Assembly: GCF_038396675.1 (NCBI RefSeq)
Contig: NC_088922.1
Location: 15,802,001-15,866,000 of the forward strand
Direction: 5' to 3'
DNA length: 64,000 nucleotides
Source of the DNA: Hydra vulgaris
Taxonomy: Eukaryota > Cnidaria > Hydrozoa > Anthoathecata > Hydridae
Each line of letters begins with the position of its first letter. Position 1 is the stretch's first letter. Made by a program: the position numbers and the translations under genes. The notes under the pieces are model-generated. The model was not told where the DNA came from and searched no databases. It saw nothing but the letters and a program-made list of their open reading frames with translations. Below, piece after piece: positions 22,926 through 40,200 of this stretch.

Positions 22926-24468
22926 GACATGTAAATCGACATGCCATTCAGTCAGTATATGGAAGTCAATCAGTCAGTATTATCAAGACAGTTTATCGAA
23001 GTGAGTTTTATCAAAGTGTTTTATCGAAGAACATCAATACAAGAAGTGAAATACAACAAGTGTTTCATTACATCAATACAGTCCACATCCAACCAAGACG
23101 TTGTGTTCCACAGAGCATTATTGTATCATCACAAGGTAAATAGAACACGGTAAGCCTTGAGAAGCGTGATTATTTATTTTTATTATTTTTATGACTTCAA
23201 GTGCAAAAATGGCTCCTGACAGTCTTGGATTAGAACTAAGAAAGAAAATTATTGGCGATTACGTAAGTGGAATGTCACAAAAAAGTATTTGTGATAAATA
23301 TCGCGTAAAAAAATGGACCGTATCAAGACTATGCTCCAAATATCGTTCTACGGGGAAGTTGGCAGCAGATAACAAAGGTGGAAGACCACGTTTCACCACT
23401 TTTAGAGAGCATTCTATGATTGTCAGATCCGTCAAGAAGGATCCCTGGATATCATCAGTCAAGATACAAAAGCAATTAGAGCTGCCTGTATCGGACCGAA
23501 CAATCAGACGACGTGCTGTTGAAGCCGGATTGTTTTCTCGACGCCCTGCAAAGAAAGCGCTGATTTCACTAAAAAACAGAAGAAAAGACTCCTGTTTGCT
23601 ATATCTCATATTGAATGGAATGTGCAAAAATGGCGAACTGTCCTGTTCAGTGATGAATCGAAGTTCAACATTATTGGGAGCGATGGCATTTGCCGTGTAC
23701 GCCGACCGGCCGGAAAACGCCTTGATTTACGTTACTGCCATAAGACCGTGAAGCATGGTGGAGGCAATGTAATGGTCTGGGGGTGTTTTTCTGCTAACGG
23801 TCTAGGTCCAATACATCGAAACGATGGAATAATGGACCGTTTCATGTATAAAAATATCCTGAAAGATGTTATGTTACCTCATGCTGAATGGAATATGCCA
23901 ATAAAATGGGTTTTTCAGCAAGACAACGATCCGAAATACACTGCAAAAGTAGTCAAGTAGTGGTTTCAAGACAACCACCTATCGGTGATTGATTGGCCAC
24001 CTCAATCTCCGGACTCAACCCTATCGAGAACCTGTGGGAGATCGTCAACCGCAGAATTAATCGTGAAGGTGTTCGTAATAAGGATCAACTGTTTGAACAA
24101 ATCCAAAAGACCTGGGCAGCGATTCCACAAAGTTTCATTGATCACCTGATTGAATCTATGCCTCGAAGATGCAAGGCTATGATCGACAACAAAGGATTTG
24201 CCACGAAATGTTGATAGCGAAATACAGCTTGGTCAACATTTTGTCGAGTTGCACTTGTTTTGTTCAGAAAGAAATCAACTCTTTTTAATACTTTTGATTA
24301 ATTTATTAACTTTCGTGTACAAATAATGAACTTTGTGATGAATAAAACTTGAAGAACTTTGTCTCTAAACAGCTACATAGTTATTTCTCTAAATTGAAAA
24401 AATGCAGCACTTTTATATAAAGAAACTAAATTAGCATTATTTGGTTGCACTCGTTTTGTCCGATACTG
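22926..24468 (+). mobile_element. Tc1/mariner element, left copy, 5'-truncated
   Basis: This is the mirror image of the right copy but cut at the palindrome edge, so it lacks the 5' terminal repeat. The 3' end is at 24468, reading GTTTTGTCCGATACTG then TA. It carries the transposase pseudogene 23191-24214. Confidence 0.85.
23191..24214 (+). pseudogene. Tc1-like transposase, left copy (frameshifted)
   Basis: This is the cut-and-paste transposase of the mariner element. Residues 1-130 (23191-23600) hold the paired-like helix-turn-helix region (LRKKIIGDYVSGMSQKSICD, GRPRFTT). The frame then shifts to 23622-23960, which carries the first catalytic block (VLFSDESKFN), MVWGCFSANG and the second (VFQQDNDPKYTA). 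A stop at 23958-23960 and another shift near 23990 lead to the last block (GLNPIENLWE, 24000-24030), where the third acidic residue of the D,D34E triad is expected. The gene is therefore broken in at least three places and should give no active enzyme. The right copy carries the same lesions. Confidence 0.93.
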
Positions 24469-25404: not shown

Positions 25405-26428
25405 TCAACATTTCGTGGCAAATCCTTTGTTGTCGATCATAGCCTTGCATCTTCGAGGCATAGATTCAATCAGGTGATCAATGAAACTTTGTGGAATCGC
25501 TGCCCAGGTCTTTTGGATTTGTTCAAACAGTTGATCCTTATTACGAACACCTTCACGATTAATTCTGCGGTTGACGATCTCCCACAGGTTCTCGATAGGG
25601 TTGAGTCCGGAGATTGAGGTGGCCAATCAATCACCGATAGGTGGTTGTCTTGAAACCACTACTTGACTACTTTTGCAGTGTATTTCGGATCGTTGTCTTG
25701 CTGAAAAACCCATTTTATTGGCATATTCCATTCAGCATGAGGTAACATAACATCTTTCAGGATATTTTTATACATGAAACGGTCCATTATTCCATCGTTT
25801 CGATGTATTGGACCTAGACCGTTAGCAGAAAAACACCCCCAGACCATTACATTGCCTCCACCATGCTTCACGGTCTTATGGCAGTAACGTAAATCAAGGC
25901 GTTTTCCGGCCGGTCGGCGTACACGGCAAATGCCATCGCTCCCAATAATGTTGAACTTCGATTCATCACTGAACAGGACAGTTCGCCATTTTTGCACATT
26001 CCATTCAATATGAGATATAGCAAACAGGAGTCTTTTCTTCTGTTTTTTAGTGAAATCAGCGCTTTCTTTGCAGGGCGTCGAGAAAACAATCCGGCTTCAA
26101 CAGCACGTCGTCTGATTGTTCGGTCCGATACAGGCAGCTCTAATTGCTTTTGTATCTTGACTGATGATATCCAGGGATCCTTCTTGACGGATCTGACAAT
26201 CATAGAATGCTCTCTAAAAGTGGTGAAACGTGGTCTTCCACCTTTGTTATCTGCTGCCAACTTCCCCGTAGAACGATATTTGGAGCATAGTCTTGATACG
26301 GTCCATTTTTTTACGCGATATTTATCACAAATACTTTTTTGTGACATTCCACTTACGTAATCGCCAATAATTTTCTTTCTTAGTTCTAATCCAAGACTGT
26401 CAGGAGCCATTTTTGCACTTGAAGTCAT
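25405..26428 (-). pseudogene. Tc1-like transposase, right copy (frameshifted)
   Basis: Mirror image of the copy at 23191-24214, with identical translations in all three frame blocks (25868-26428, 25659-25997 and 25405-25626). It carries the same two frameshifts and the same stop. It faces the left copy tail to tail, about 1.2 kb apart. Identical inactivating lesions show that both descend from one already dead copy. Confidence 0.93.
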
Positions 26429-26900: not shown

Positions 26901-27254
26901 ATTATCAAAAAACTTCCGTGACGTTGACACGAACCAGACTTAAGAAAATGAAACAAACCAAAAAAGTTGCACTTGTTTTGTCCGCTGCAAAATGGCACTT
27001 ATTAACGAAATTCTGCCTGTGTGCTGTCACCTGTCAGCTGATTGCTCATGTCATGGCATGCTATGACTCCAGACTCCTGAACTGTTCGCTGTGGTAGTAT
27101 AGTTCGTTTTGTTTTTAAGACATGTAAAATTAGGAACACTTTTTAGCATTGTTTGATGTTTGTTGCGAATGTTTTGTCCAATACTGTGTGTTTATATATA
27201 TTGATTTTAATAAAAAAAGGCAGCGTATAGCTATTTTTTAAATATATTTTGATA

Positions 27255-27312
27255 TAATAATATATTAACAATATTTCGCTGACCTATTGTGGTCAGCTTC
27301 ATCAGGTAATGA
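27255..27312 (-). ncRNA. Hammerhead-like motif, left arm of Penelope-like element 1
   Basis: On the minus strand it reads CTGATGA (27299-27305), one extra A, a 7-bp stem GCTGACC/GGTCAGC, then GAAA (27274-27277), followed by an AT stem with a short loop. The core words fit a type I hammerhead, but the extra A and a poor stem I argue that this copy is decayed. Confidence 0.45.
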
Positions 27313-27559
27313 AAAAAACGTTACAAAGTAGCACCAAACCAACCGTTTAAAGAAGAAGACAATAAAAAGCGTAAAGTATAAAAACCAATATAAACCAATA
27401 ATATAATAGTCACTATCATCCACATATCTTTTGTAAGTTAATGGTAGGAATGAATTAACAAAGGCTATATTAAAGGCACTTTTTTTATCTTCATAGCTGA
27501 AGCATTTTGCAAAATATAGAAAAAAGAGCCCTTAATATAATTTGTTAATTCATTCCAAC

Positions 27560-28510
27560 CAGTGACTTGCAAATGATATGTAGACGATACTCGATAGCTC
27601 GCTTCGATTCGAAAGAAAAACAAGAACTGTTTCTTAAAAGTTTAAATGAACCAAACACCTCCATATAATACACTGTTGAACTTGAAAACGAAAGAAAACT
27701 TTTTAGATATAAATATTACAAATACAATTAAAGGATTTTATAAATTTTAAGTACGATATGTGATAACAATCAAAACAAGTACGGATGCAGTAACAAATGT
27801 TCAAATAAAACCAAACTCTAACATCAAACAAAGCATAATCACTGGCGTCTTTAAAGGATTTCTATGTAGAGGAAAACAAATCTGCTCCCAAAAACACCTC
27901 TCACAAGAAATTGACTTCCTCAGAGATATATTTTTTGAAAACGGCTATAACAAAAGTCATCTTATTAAAATAACCAAAAACTATTTTGACCACGTTTTAA
28001 AAAATACTACATCTAAACAATTAGATAAGCAGTTTGTTAAACTACCTTGGATACCTATTATTGACCCTAAACTCCGAAGAGAATTTAGAAAACAAAACAT
28101 CAGAGTTATATTTACTTCAGCTCCCAATTTAAATAACATATTATGCAACAATAAAACAAAACTACCTCCGATTTCAAATCCGGGAGTTTACCAACTTAAA
28201 TGCTCATGTGGAAATATATATATATAATAGCGAGACCAAAAAGAAAATCATTTGAAGAAATGCGGAACACCAAAGAGCCAGTAAAAATCAAAAATGGTCG
28301 AGTTTAGGAGCCACGCAACATTCTAGAACATGCCGTGGTACTTTTGATTAGCTGAATCCTAAGACCTTGGCAGTCATTCCAGAATACAGGATAAGAAAAG
28401 TAAGAGAACCCCTGGTGATAAATAAAGCAAGAAATCGATACGAGATAGGTATTGGGCAAACTGTTCTAAAAAGAAATGACGGGGATAATGTGAAAACAAA
28501 AACTTAGGGA
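27560..28510 (+). pseudogene. Penelope-like RT/GIY-YIG remnant 1
   Basis: The end of the RT palm is visible as YVDDT at 27577-27591, then the thumb (SKEKQELFLKSLNE, 27613-27655). The open frame 27760-28227 covers the linker (SIITGVFKGFLCRGKQICS, PWIPIIDPKLRREFRKQN) and the start of the GIY-YIG endonuclease (NPGVYQLKCSCGNIYI). A shift at the TATATA run then moves the frame, and the rest of the nuclease follows (NAEHQRASKNQKWSSLGATQ, NKARNRYEIGIGQTV) to about 28500. This is the expected Penelope order of RT followed by GIY-YIG. The N-terminal part of RT is missing, and stops occur near 27582 and 28246, so the copy is dead. Confidence 0.88.
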
Positions 28511-28633
28511 TCATTTTTGACAAAAATTTAACTGACGTCACTATTTTATTATTTGATTGGTTTTTATATTTAACGATTTTTAATGTCTTCTTTAATAAAA
28601 GGTTAGTTTTATGTTATTTTGTAACGTTTTTTT

Positions 28634-28690
28634 CATTACCTGATGACACTGACTACAATAGGTCAGCGAAATATCGTTAATATAGCAGTA
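28634..28690 (+). ncRNA. Hammerhead-like motif, right arm of Penelope-like element 1
   Basis: CTGATGA (28640-28646), a stem CTGAC/GTCAG with unpaired bases at its foot, GAAA (28668-28671), a 4-bp stem III (ATAT with ATAT) and TA at 28683-28684 as the likely cleavage step. Stem I has at least one mismatch. It is a decayed relative of the better preserved motif at 30131. Confidence 0.45.
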
Positions 28691-28708
28691 TATCAAAATA
28701 TATTTAAC

Positions 28709-29185: not shown

Positions 29186-29450
<265 letters not shown>

Positions 29451-29557
29451 AGTAACCTTATATAAAGCATGGAAAAAATAATTAGACGCTGTCTTTTTTA
29501 TTAAAATCAATTTATATATTTATAAACATATCGTATAACAAGAAATGACTTTTAAAA

Positions 29558-29630
<73 letters not shown>

Positions 29631-29636
29631 ATATAC

Positions 29637-30009
29637 CGAGGGCAAATGGAAAAAACGTTGTGCCAATCACAAACAATCTTTTGAACGTAAAAAATACTCA
29701 AAAGAGACTATGCTGTCTAAATATATATGGCAACTAAAAGAAAAAAATATTAATTTTAAATTAAACTGGTCTATCCTAAAAACTGCGCCTGCTTATAATA
29801 ACATTTCCAAAAAATGTACACTATGTTTACAAGAAAAATTTGAAATTATTACTCATTTAGATCAAGAAAATTTACTAAATAAAAAATCAGAATTAATTTC
29901 TAAATGCAGACATGAAAATAAGTTCCTTTTAAAAATTATAAAAACAAATGACCAGTCCAAATTTATCCTAATTCTAAAGAACTCTTTTCATGATTTTTTA
30001 ATTATCTAA
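29637..30009 (+). pseudogene. Penelope-like GIY-YIG endonuclease end, remnant 2
   Basis: An open frame emerges directly from the (TA)n tract and reads TEGKWKKRCANHKQSF, SKYIWQLKEKNINFKLNWSI, CTLCLQEKFEIITHLDQENL and LNKKSELISKCRHENKFLL. This is the distal GIY-YIG nuclease plus the cysteine/arginine-rich tail typical of Penelope-like elements, and it differs clearly from remnant 1, so it is a different subfamily. Everything upstream (RT and the GIY and YIG strands) is missing, and the copy begins at the TA repeat. The intact stop at 30007-30009 is followed 120 bases on by the hammerhead motif. The short TA-coded N-terminus of the open frame is not real protein. Confidence 0.85.
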
Positions 30010-30130
30010 TGTAGTTGATGCAACTTCCTGGTTAAAAAATACTACAGTTATTACATAATTAATTATAACAATTCCTAACTTCCTGTGAAATAATTTTTCT
30101 ATAATTTGAAAACTTTTTTATGTTTAGACA

Positions 30131-30175
30131 TTCTTCCTGATGAACCTGCTGATGGTGAAACACATTGTAGAAGAG
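30131..30175 (+). ncRNA. Type I hammerhead ribozyme motif
   Basis: All core elements are present in order. Stem I 5' strand TTCTTC (30131-30136); CTGATGA (30137-30143); stem II ACC/GGT (30144-30146, 30154-30156) with a 7-base loop; GAAA (30157-30160); a minimal stem III of 3 bp closed by the loop CAT (30163-30165); GTA with cleavage expected after A30169; and stem I 3' strand GAAGAG (30170-30175), giving 5 Watson-Crick pairs plus one G-U. A very short stem III is the hallmark of retroelement hammerheads. It sits where Penelope-like elements carry such ribozymes, just 3' of the GIY-YIG frame. Confidence 0.75.
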
Positions 30176-30179
30176 ATCA

Positions 30180-31680
30180 AAAATTAGATAAATGTTTTTA
30201 CTAATTTATATATTTGTTGCAGTATTTTAAAAATGAAAAAATTATCAAAATTAAACGATTTGACAAAAAGTTATAATAATACCGATAGTACATAAATACC
30301 GATTTTTTGATATATGGATTTGTTGAAGAAACTGTGGTCAAAAATATACTTTTCTCAACTAAAATTAACATAAATTTGTCAATTCTCTTTTAAACGTCTA
30401 TAATTTGGTATCAAAAGATAGGTATTAGAGTGGGGTACAAATTCATGTTGGTTTCTAGCTATTGGGCGTATCCAGGAGGCTAGATGGGGTACCAAACCAA
30501 CACCTACACCGCCAATAAATGCAAGTTTTATCTACAAAAAAGTTTATTTATTGCTAAAATACTTGATTTTCATTTTATTTTTTAAAAGTAATTATTATTT
30601 GCTTCCAGACCACTGCCAAATATGAAACTTAGGGTGGGTGTTAGTTCAGTTTAGGGTGTTAACACACCCTAAAATGAAAAAAAAATTTCTAAATAATTTT
30701 TTTTCATTATTAAAAAAAATAAATTTAGTATGAAATACAAAAACTTTATTTTACTACTACTAGATGCACACATTGATTCAGTGAAATAGGGGACGTGTGC
30801 CACCACGTCTCTCCAACCTAAAAATAGATTCAAATTTTTATATGCAATTTAGAAAAAGATTTAAATTGCTATTATATAAAATAAAACAAAATAGCATTAA
30901 CAAAATTACAAGATGCATCAGAGGATCCATTCTTTCTGTAAAAAAAGCGTTTAAATCCCCCCTCCTAACCTAAAAATAATACTTTTAAATTAAATTATTT
31001 TGAACTAAACCAATTATTAATTTTTGTCTTGGCTTTTAGTAAATGATTAAAATTTTAAATTCCATCAATGAAACAAATAATAATCATTTTTAACTATAGA
31101 CACGACGAGAACGTAAGTCAGAGCCTCCTATCAAAATAATTGCAAGTCACACAACTTGCTGTACTTTTTTTGCAAGTCATACCACTTGCAGTAATTAATT
31201 TATACATATATTGATAATAAATTTTATACATATATTTATCATACTTAAATCACAGAAGCAATATTATTACAAGTTGTTACATATTCACTTGTGTTGGGGT
31301 AAGCTTTGTCACAAAAATGTTGTGACAAAGCTTACCCTAAACAACAAGTTTGGTTTCTACTATCACATAAATAACATTAAACCACATAATAAAACAGCCA
31401 ATTTATGAAAAAATCAACTCTCGTGCAATAACATCAGCAGCAAGCTGGATTTTTTTTATGAGATTGTCAACGCTTCTGAATCAGATTCATCCTTTTTCCT
31501 GTAAGAAATGGTATAAATTCTGTTTTCTTTTCTCTTATTTGTTTTTACTACTCGCCCATCATACATGATAGATTTTACCATCTGTATCAAACCATTTATG
31601 GCAGAGTTCTCTCCCAACAATTCTTTTATACATTACATCATATAAGTTTCAAGTTGTTTAATAGATAAGTGCTTATATAA
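30180..31680. other. No gene recognised
   Basis: AT-rich. A small inverted repeat is visible at 31298-31335 (GGGTAAGCTTTGTCACAA...TTGTGACAAAGCTTACCC, perfect 18-bp arms). Short repeats of TTGCAAGTCA(C/T)AC occur near 31140-31190. AGGGTG words near 30635-30665 are inverted (AGGGTGTTAACACACCCT). Confidence 0.5.
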
Positions 31681-37279: not shown

Positions 37280-40200
37280 CACGGTCTTCTATAATAACAG
37301 GCCTTGACATCGCGCAACAAAGTTGATAAACTGAAGGCCAATTCCTAATACTGTGTTTACATTTTCATCTTTTAACATTAGACGAAAGTTTGTGTTCACA
37401 CTTTTTTAATAAATCTTTAAAATTTGATTGGTTTATAAATTAGATAGCGCAACTTCAAGACGATAACCTTGTAAGGTTCAAGGCGTTACATTGTAAGGTA
37501 ATAATATTGTCAAACTAACGGTAAGTTTTTTTAATAATTAAAATGCCTTTAAAATGCTGTGTATCTCTTTGCAAGTCGAACTATCTCAACTACAACAAAA
37601 ATATCAATTTATACAACTACAACTACAATATCAATTACAACTACAACAAAAATATCAATTTATAAATTCCCGAAGAATCTAGAGGAGAGAAAAAGATGTA
37701 GTGAAGCTATCCCAAGAACTGGTTTTATTGTTACAGACTATACAGCAGTATGTCAACTTCATTGGCCAAATGAAGCACCTTTTGAAAGCAAATATGGGAA
37801 GCAACGACCTTTAAACCCACCATCTGTTTTTAAAAATATTCCGCTCAGTTGTTTAGCCTCACCAGCAAGTAAAGTTAGAAAAACTGTAACTTCAAGCGGT
37901 TTTCGAAGCATTTTACCAGATGAGTTAAATAATTTTCTAAAAGAGGATGAACTTATATTTGACGATATTCAATCTTTGTTAAGTGATAATGATGTTATTG
38001 TTTTCCAGCTTAATAAAAAAAGTTTACACATACAATCAAAAATGTACAAACTTGGTGTTCCATTATTTATTTTAGTAATTTTCAATGATTATTCACTTGT
38101 AGCTAACTATAATGGCACAACTTGTAATATTTCATCTTTAGCTGTAAACAAATTAAAGTTAATAAAAACAAAATCAGCTTTATTTGAAGCAGTTAGATTT
38201 TTTTAAAAAATTAAGAAAGTTCGCTTCAGTTAAATAATCTATTCGAACACCTTAATGCTATGAAAAAAGTTAATGTTGGTGAAGTTTTATATACTTCAGA
38301 TATTATATGTAGAGCATATGAGTATTTTGCTATGTGACAAAGTTTATATGACTGTTTGTGTATTGACTACAAGTTGCCAAGTATAAGGACACGATTGACT
38401 TCAAAAATAAGCTCAATGGAGGACCTAATTTTCATAAATAGTATTTTTATGAATTTAAATCCATTGAAAAGAACTTACATACTACTAATTGATGAGGTCA
38501 AAGCTTCATTACTTTACCAAAGAGGTGCTTTGTTTGGTCAAGCAGTAAACTACCCTGAAAAGTTAGCTAAAACAATTTTATCATTTATGATGAAATGTCT
38601 TTTTGGAGGTCCAGAATATATATGTAGAGCTCAACCTATTGCAAATTGTTCTTCTGAATTTCAGTTTGCTTAATGTCAACAAATTGTTGATACTATAAAT
38701 AATATTGAAAATAGTAAGACACTGGTAATAATTACTGATGGTAACCGTGTAAATCAAAGATTTTTTGGAATGTTTAAAACAGTTGATAGTAAACCATGGT
38801 TAACAACATCAGGTATATATTTATTGTATGATTATGTGCATCTCTTAAAATCTATATGAAACAATTGGTTGACAGAAAAGACTGACAAACTTCAATTTTG
38901 AACAATAAAGAACTGGCTTTGGCTAAGTGGAGTGATTTAGAAACTTTATATAAAACTGAGTGCAATAGTCTTTTTAAACTCTCTAAACTTACAGCTAAAT
39001 CAGTTTATCCAAAACCAATAGAGAGACAATCTGTAAAGTTTTGTTTGTCTGTTTTTTGCGAAGAAACAGTAGCTACATTAAGAACGCATCCAGAGATTGA
39101 AAATAAAGCATTTGAAGGTACTGCTGAAATAAATTTTTTTTTTCGAATGTTGTTAATGTCAAAGCACCTGGTGCTGGCATTCGGTTTAGAAATGAATTAT
39201 GCGGAGAAATCCACTCAGTTGGTGATCAACAGTTACAACTGCTACGAGATATTGCTGAACTGTCAAATCATATGAAACCTACAGGTAAGCGTGTAACACA
39301 GCTTTCGCTAGATACTAGTAATGCAATAGCGCATTCATGTTATGGCTTTATTGATCTCGTAGAAACTTTGTTGAGTAATGGAGCAAAGTATGTCTTATTA
39401 GGTTGGTTTTCAACAGTCCACTTGAAAAAGCTTTTTCTAAGCTTTGACAGGGATCTGGAGGTACTTACTTTATAAACGCTAAATCTGTAATTGAAAAAAT
39501 TAATATTCAACATACTAAATTGATATTACAACTTGACATTCCTGTTGATGGTATCGATGGTCATACTTTTGACACATGTTTTAGAGATATTTCTACTGAT
39601 GAAAAAGAACTTCTGGATAATATACATGATCTTGAAAGGTCAGTTAATAAATCTACATTAGTGGCTATAGTTTACATAGCTGGCTATGTGCAAAAAAGCG
39701 AAATAAAAATTTATGATTATTCTACCAATTATTATTATAAATATGGAAGTTATCTGTATAGCCTAAACAGAGGCGGACTTGAAATTCCTTCTGATACTCT
39801 TGTCTAATGGTCAATATTTTGCTTTTTTTTTTCAAGGTGCTACTGACCCTTTATGCAGAACATCTTGTGTTTCATTTCATTGCTGCTAAATATAAATTTA
39901 AAATCACAAAAAAACAATGCAGAGTATATTCTAATATTCTGCTAAAGAATTACTCTCTAATTACCACTCCCAAAATACTAAAGCTATCATAATTTATGTG
40001 AAAATTAGTTTTGTAATTTATTATGCTATTTACTTGTTATGTTTTTTATTTTCTCATTAGCCTATATGTCTCTCAATATGTTTGGATTTGTAATTATTTA
40101 CCCTGTTGAGATATATTGATAAAACTTTTGTTTTGCTTGAATCAACTTTTGTTGGTGATTTTTATTGTTACCATTTTTAGAAAAAAAAATTAAAAAAACA

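Follow-up and report, generated by a model that had tools for sequence, protein, structure and literature searches.

Hammerhead motif and host element

The window analysed here is the whole 64,000-nucleotide stretch of Hydra vulgaris DNA, and it contains the remnant of an open reading frame followed, 121 bases after the stop codon, by a compact hammerhead motif (Table 1).

Table 1. Coordinates of the element copy and of its hammerhead motif in the window.
Feature	Position	Strand	Basis or remark
Mainly (TA)n tract adjoining the 5' truncation	29560..29634		direct reading, copy comparison
5'-truncated ORF remnant (endonuclease C-terminal part)	29635..30009	+	inside ORF 29545-30009, stop 30007-30009
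Hammerhead stem I, 5' strand TTCTTC	30131..30136	+	direct reading, structural scan, covariance model
Core CTGATGA	30137..30143	+	direct reading, structural scan, covariance model
Stem II ACC/GGT, 7-base loop	30144..30156	+	direct reading, structural scan, covariance model
Core GAA	30157..30159	+	direct reading, structural scan, covariance model
Stem III ACACATTGT, 3 bp (ACA/TGT) and 3-base loop CAT	30160..30168	+	direct reading
H17 = A; predicted cleavage 3' of A30169	30169	+	direct reading
Stem I, 3' strand GAAGAG	30170..30175	+	direct reading, structural scan, covariance model
Element 3' sequence to 3' end site 1	30176..30213	+	homology limit of long copies

The core words CTGATGA, GAAA and GTA stand at 30137-30169 in the order given by an earlier note on this DNA, and direct reading bears out the stems that it described, namely stem I with 6 bp, one of them G-U, stem II with 3 bp, and stem III with 3 bp and a 3-base loop. 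The motif has the ordered CUGAUGA, GAA(A) and NUH segments, the three stems, and the opening at stem I that define type I hammerheads, and by the rule of hammerhead anatomy cleavage is placed after H17. A structural scan of both strands of the window requiring an exact core, at least 3 pairs in stems II and III, and at least 4 pairs in stem I has 30131-30175 as its sole match; the chance expectation is 0.005 per window, from 200 random sequences with the first-order base steps of the window.

The check by hammerhead covariance models proposed in the earlier note gave a divided answer. Rfam 15 yields no match at gathering over the full 64 kb, none of its eight matches at E ≤ 10 over 29600-30800 is a hammerhead, and on an 81-base piece it reports only a mis-framed Hammerhead_3 with E 2.6. 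None of eight kin loci reaches gathering with RF00163, and the sibling copy L061 matches Hammerhead_1 with E 2.3e-4 and 25.6 bits, below gathering (34 bits). Because Rfam misses the window copy, a covariance model was built from 35 other copies, the window copy excluded; this model finds the window copy with 74 bits and E 7.5e-18, and its next-best match in the window has only E 2.1. The lowest-energy fold of the isolated window strand is not the hammerhead (-8.1 kcal/mol, z 0.01, compared with -3.7 kcal/mol for the hammerhead fold), and folding energy was set aside as a test, being uninformative at such a short motif length.

Genome-wide searches covered the 911.5-Mb assembly of 15 contigs. 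The pattern CTGATGA-N10,13-GAAAC-N5-GT has 3,848 + 3,819 = 7,667 matches, compared with 4 + 11 = 15 for the reversed control, and a stricter, window-like pattern has 104 + 105 matches and 0 in the control. Chance resemblance of AT-rich DNA to a degenerate motif would agree with the failure of Rfam and of minimum-energy folding to detect the motif, but it is refuted by the scan expectation, these genome-wide counts, and the independent covariance model, and its probability is negligible. The hammerhead at 30131-30175 is confirmed as real, with its core, three stems, and predicted cleavage site. It is a slightly decayed member of an already described ribozyme class, overlooked by the curated RNA library.

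The reading frame upstream had been taken for a GIY-YIG endonuclease of a Penelope-like element (PLE). The motif does lie 3' of its stop codon, but the frame is a 5'-truncated remnant that begins at the TEGKW point, after the YIG motif seen in kin, and adjoins the (TA)n tract. In kin the protein extends upstream with IYKC...DKHYIGLTEGKW and a reverse transcriptase (RT)-like part, and the motifs IYKC..YIGLT..R..H, FDIIDFYPS, and DDGL can be recognized by eye. Recognition as a nuclease by profile failed: Pfam, NCBIfam, and PDB sequence searches with the window protein and with longer kin name no RT or nuclease and return only unrelated families below the cut-off, so that the label Penelope-like rests on the motifs read by eye and on anatomy. 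The PLE traits found in the family are 5' truncation, head-to-head inverted partial copies, a one-ended tail, and an AT-rich target; of these the window copy itself shows truncation and 5' (TA)n only. A protein search with 352 kin residues gives at least 116 matches, the best 115 of 14,371 candidates having been scored.

In the window copy and in L059 the ORF is followed by the ribozyme at a distance of about 120-170 bases. One 5'-complete copy, L061, has a ribozyme also just 5' of the ORF, with the order hammerhead core (at 748), site 1 (..ACTAATTA), hairpin, site 2 (..ACATAATTTA), and ORF, the last being open from 909 onward, with ATG first occurring at 942. The 62-base inter-site segment of L061 folds at -10.7 kcal/mol, and 19 distinct natural inter-site segments range from -14.0 to -4.5 kcal/mol with a median of -10.7. 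The stretch GCTCTGTTC...ACATAATTTA, which adjoins many copies, had been considered as a MITE-like target repeat, which is rejected since L061 places it inside the element, between ribozyme and ORF.

Other features of the window are recorded as side observations. Tracts of (TA)n occur at 29189-29447 and 29560-29634; (TA)n adjoins many of the copies examined, which fits an AT-rich target choice. A 152-nt inverted repeat (27238-27389 and 28556-28707, 87% complementary) flanks a degenerate ORF remnant at 27760-28227, and in each arm there is an older core resembling a hammerhead (28640 on the plus strand, 27305 on the minus strand), in which stem II is longer and a matching stem I is lacking; the whole is probably another, older PLE whose ends stand head to head. 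Two 186-aa ORFs, 23191-23751 (+) and 25868-26428 (-), have identical Pfam scores for the Tc3-type transposase helix-turn-helix PF01498 and probably form an inverted transposon pair. A 215-aa ORF at 37559-38206 (+) has a weak THAP-domain match (E 0.005, below the cut-off).

Covariation and stem III in the family

With the 696-base stretch 29635-30330 as query, at least 44 matches were obtained, the best 40 of 4,228 first-look candidates having been scored. Among those listed, 41 are long, namely the window itself (100%) and 40 others at 93-96% identity aligned over roughly the first 535-590 query bases, and 3 are short (86-92%). Homology of the long copies stops near 30213 (about 30202-30218). 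The window copy is not special: it is one among thousands.

Covariation was assessed on an alignment of 35 motifs from other loci chosen by an exact core and three stem III pairs, so that core invariance and these three pairs prove nothing. The hammerhead structure together with the outer loop III pair has 86.8% of 455 cells paired. The covariation score is 0.316, compared with a shuffled mean of 0.155 that none of 500 shuffles raised to this value, and structures slid along the alignment score at most 0.084; cells changed on both sides number 46, compared with 17.8 in shuffles (0/500). Two of five measures fail to exceed shuffles: pairs with a double change (8 of 13, reached by 121/500 shuffles) and further pair types (20, reached by 124/500) are not above chance. 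The two outer stem I pairs are unpaired in 16 and 19 of the 35 rows and the outer stem II pair in 12. Across copies, stem I varies from CTTC/GAAG to ATTT/AAAT types, and stem II among ACC/GGT, GCC/GGC, and ATC/GAT. The stems of the family hammerhead are supported by covariation with compensatory changes, and the comparison with other genomic copies, suggested earlier for stems I and II, upholds a type I architecture 3' of the ORF in an apparent Penelope-type element.

Stem III of kin is ACACAGTGT, a 9-nt near-palindrome that could form an 8-bp stem between two molecules, the ribozyme RNAs being of the GAAACACAGTGTA type. The two outer bases of loop III, which leave a one-base gap within one molecule and can thus pair only between two, are paired in 34 of the 35 rows (CG 21, UA 9, AU 3, UG 1). 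When the search pattern left these bases free, they were complementary in 83 of 100 copies (the first 100 of the 7,667; shuffled mean 41.3), and counted by distinct stem III types they are complementary in 12 of 22 (shuffled mean 6.6, P 0.01). The window copy has CAT instead of the CAG of kin, so that its dimer stem III has 6 pairs (6/9 positions) rather than 8. The calculated energy of its dimer hammerhead is -11.7 kcal/mol, with a cofold optimum of -20.1; the corresponding values are -20.2 and -20.8 for the kin copy L025 and -17.8 and -19.0 for L061. In two other copies the dimer hammerhead lies far above the optimum (L012, -13.4 vs -17.2; L021, -12.0 vs -22.6 kcal/mol).

Because loop III covaries as an intermolecular pair, the family ribozyme looks built for dimers, as far as its sequence indicates, and the window copy looks damaged in that respect. 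The dimer dependence proposed in the earlier note on account of the tiny stem III is therefore supported for the family but not for the window copy, in which the pair is lost; overall, the earlier interpretation is partly supported. According to PMC7761336, minimal PLE hammerheads have been reported to cleave as dimers. As presented in that article and in PMC7229834, the minimal type I hammerheads of PLEs (Cervera & de la Pena 2014; Lunse, Weinberg & Breaker 2017) resemble the present family in being type I with a very short stem III, in lying in non-coding ends of PLEs, in numbering thousands per genome, and in being thought to cleave as dimers; relative to that description, the Hydra family differs in that stem III has 3 bp and a 3-nt loop, the outer bases of which covary as an intermolecular pair.

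Head-to-head junctions and end sites

Neighbouring motifs no more than 400 bp away were classified by orientation for the first 100 copies, and 2 are tandem, 13 head-to-head, and 2 tail-to-tail. A retrozyme, that is, a small tandemly repeated unit (150-450 bp) that is non-autonomous and carries type I hammerheads, of the kind found in corals, has the precedent of a coral genome in which such repeats occur beside minimal PLE-like hammerheads (PMC7229834, as far as its account goes). The scarcity of tandem neighbours, the coding remnant in front of the window copy, and its being the only scan match in the window make this origin very improbable. In the description of PMC7229834, non-LTR retrozymes share with the present family type I hammerheads in cnidarian repeats, but they are tandem and non-coding, and helix III is longer in those of invertebrates than in the weak retrozymes of amphibians.

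The head-to-head arrangement is common. Genome-wide, TCATCAG-N0,30-CTGATGA has 2,322 matches, some of them nested, with 142 in the control, and TCATCAG-N31,60-CTGATGA has 814, with 48 in the control. Among the first 50 matches listed for the shorter spacer (41 distinct), 43 carry a hammerhead stem I word, with gaps of 4-30. In one subfamily, searched with words of equal length, 201 junctions fall at stem I (control 0), compared with 28 in the cleavage/stem III region, 3 within the tail, and 1 further upstream (controls 0); the ratios are rough, because exact-word counts depend on conservation and the upstream word is known from two copies (L059 and L061). Of the 28 junctions in the cleavage/stem III region, 11 read CTTC-TA-GAAG, which is explained by TA overlap. 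Ribozyme-cleaved RNA as the template is without support, just 1 of these 28 junctions coinciding with the cleavage site itself. Apparent inverted partners near position 1017 proved to be false matches of a loose regular expression in coding sequence.

The arms of these pairs end at two different sites. From the 50-row list, 35 were fetched (15 loci as listed and 20 picked by hand) and 15 left out; after L045, which is the same place as L044, had been dropped, 34 head-to-head places were available, of which 9 were unclassifiable. Of the 25 classifiable pairs, 24 are mixed, with one arm reaching to site 1 and its partner to site 2, compared with 12.5 mixed pairs expected (nominal P 7e-7, which assumes independent copies); the end-site rule was written after the arms had been seen. 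The remaining pair is 2/2, and none is 1/1. Seven of 30 long copies have an inverted tail upstream, and all 5 assessable ones (L014, L016, L027, L033, and L037; L021 and L035 were not assessable) are likewise mixed.

The arms of one pair are also more alike than arms of different pairs. They share the subfamily in 25 of 25 assignable cases. For the comparison of differences, L045 and L050 were dropped, leaving 26 pairs with readable arms, and 25 were used, L080 being left out since one of its arms fits no family word. The mean difference within pairs is 3.04, compared with 5.34 between pairs of the same family, and none of 2000 permutations is as good; the arms are identical in 9 of the 25 pairs. 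One pair, L072, behaves in the opposite way, its arms differing by 11 compared with 8.3 between pairs. The similarity could come partly from gene conversion. Most head-to-head arms hold the whole ribozyme, in a sample of pairs chosen by the core on both sides.

Side observations on the pairs include whole-element head-to-head copies with RT and endonuclease (minus then plus), among them C4:2884648/2888868, C8:30210196/30212760, and C10:47518561/47519541, some of which match from the same residue in both arms. L046 and L048 (C1:4429979 and C1:5875910), 1.4 Mb apart, share a non-palindromic 26-base centre and a GAACAT variant in both arms, suggesting that this palindrome was copied or moved once. 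Palindromes replicating as units were rejected as a general rule, as one spacer (with at most 2 mismatches) recurs at 2 places only.

Proposed insertion from two sites

We assign a probability of roughly 85% to the reading that the motif is a minimal type I hammerhead belonging to a highly abundant Penelope-like retrotransposon family, dimer-shaped and inserting from two sites, of which the window holds a 5'-truncated copy with a slightly decayed ribozyme. Since the arms end at different sites and share variants, one RNA template appears to have been copied from two start sites. In the mechanism proposed here, two RNAs would pair through the 9-nt near-palindromic stem III, a structure supported by covariation, and may then cleave after H17. 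The element protein would prime reverse transcription at (TA)n DNA, starting at one of two AU-rich RNA sites that flank the hairpin downstream of the ribozyme. For a head-to-head insertion, each target strand would use a different site on one and the same uncleaved RNA; the two cDNAs would extend as far as an RNA 5' end situated at stem I, some 6 nt before the core, and be joined there. That every head-to-head insertion is one such event on one RNA, with RT straddling the hairpin, priming the strands at its opposite sides and having the cDNAs joined at stem I, is put forward tentatively, at somewhat short of even odds; RT might then act as a protein dimer, and joining might use a few bases of homology.

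An inverted pair could also arise by self-priming, in which the 3' end of one cDNA (or antisense RNA) folds back and primes the copying of that strand, later endonuclease cuts producing the ends at sites 1 and 2. Self-priming has been put forward for rotifer PLEs on the evidence of palindromes in their inverted junctions, as reported in PMC3846280, and it agrees with the variants shared by the arms and with junctions such as GGAAGAGTTCC, which has the form of a snap-back with a 3-nt loop. It does not by itself predict different end sites in nearly all classified pairs, and perfect, loop-free palindromes make up 4 of the 50 junctions listed. Self-priming is possible, with the balance of probability against it. 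In the description of PMC3846280, Penelope of the rotifer Adineta vaga resembles the Hydra family in its head-to-head inverted pseudo-LTRs, junction palindromes, and tail on one end only; in Hydra the junction palindrome is hammerhead stem I, with about two thousand junctions above control, whereas the main text of PMC3846280 is without the word hammerhead.

The closest parallel for two start sites is a PLE of the lizard Anolis, Poseidon PAc. As described in PMC11167929, both strands are cut and extended by its protein, two adjacent RNA sites serve as starts for reverse transcription, and insertion proceeds without cleavage by the ribozyme. PAc shares with the Hydra family a hammerhead at the boundary of non-coding sequence and ORF, two start sites, an AT-rich target, and an optional 3' tail between the sites. 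By that account it differs in that the Hydra sites lie on either side of a hairpin, between the hammerhead and the ORF that follows it, and in that PAc has no start-site difference between strands in vitro, whereas Hydra insertions mostly pair one site with the other.

The anole element bears as well on what the hammerhead is kept for. The fold may be retained as a recognition structure for the element protein and not for self-cleavage: cleavage-dead mutants of the anole PLE still insert, and cleavage needed protein (PMC11167929, in the account available there). The whole ribozymes in most head-to-head arms point the same way, since the templates of the pairs studied would then have been uncleaved. 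Against this, covariation keeps the geometry of a dimer hammerhead including the loop III pair, and related PLE hammerheads are those reported to cleave as dimers in PMC7761336. We regard recognition without self-cleavage as unlikely. A role for dimer cleavage by the family ribozyme is what we infer from its structure.

The wider data set matters more than the ribozyme itself, and the insertion signature is its less expected part; among the titles and abstract openings searched, no published report of hammerhead stem I as a head-to-head junction was found. PLE insertion is described in PMC11167929 as largely an open question, and the Hydra genome offers about two thousand junctions at a fixed position with paired end sites. 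With this set one can test whether priming of the two target strands takes place on one RNA, and whether ribozyme action precedes or follows insertion. If true, the proposed insertion from two sites would provide a single mechanism for the long-known one-sided tail, the inverted pseudo-LTRs, and the junction palindromes of PLEs, and the uncleaved RNA would be the template.
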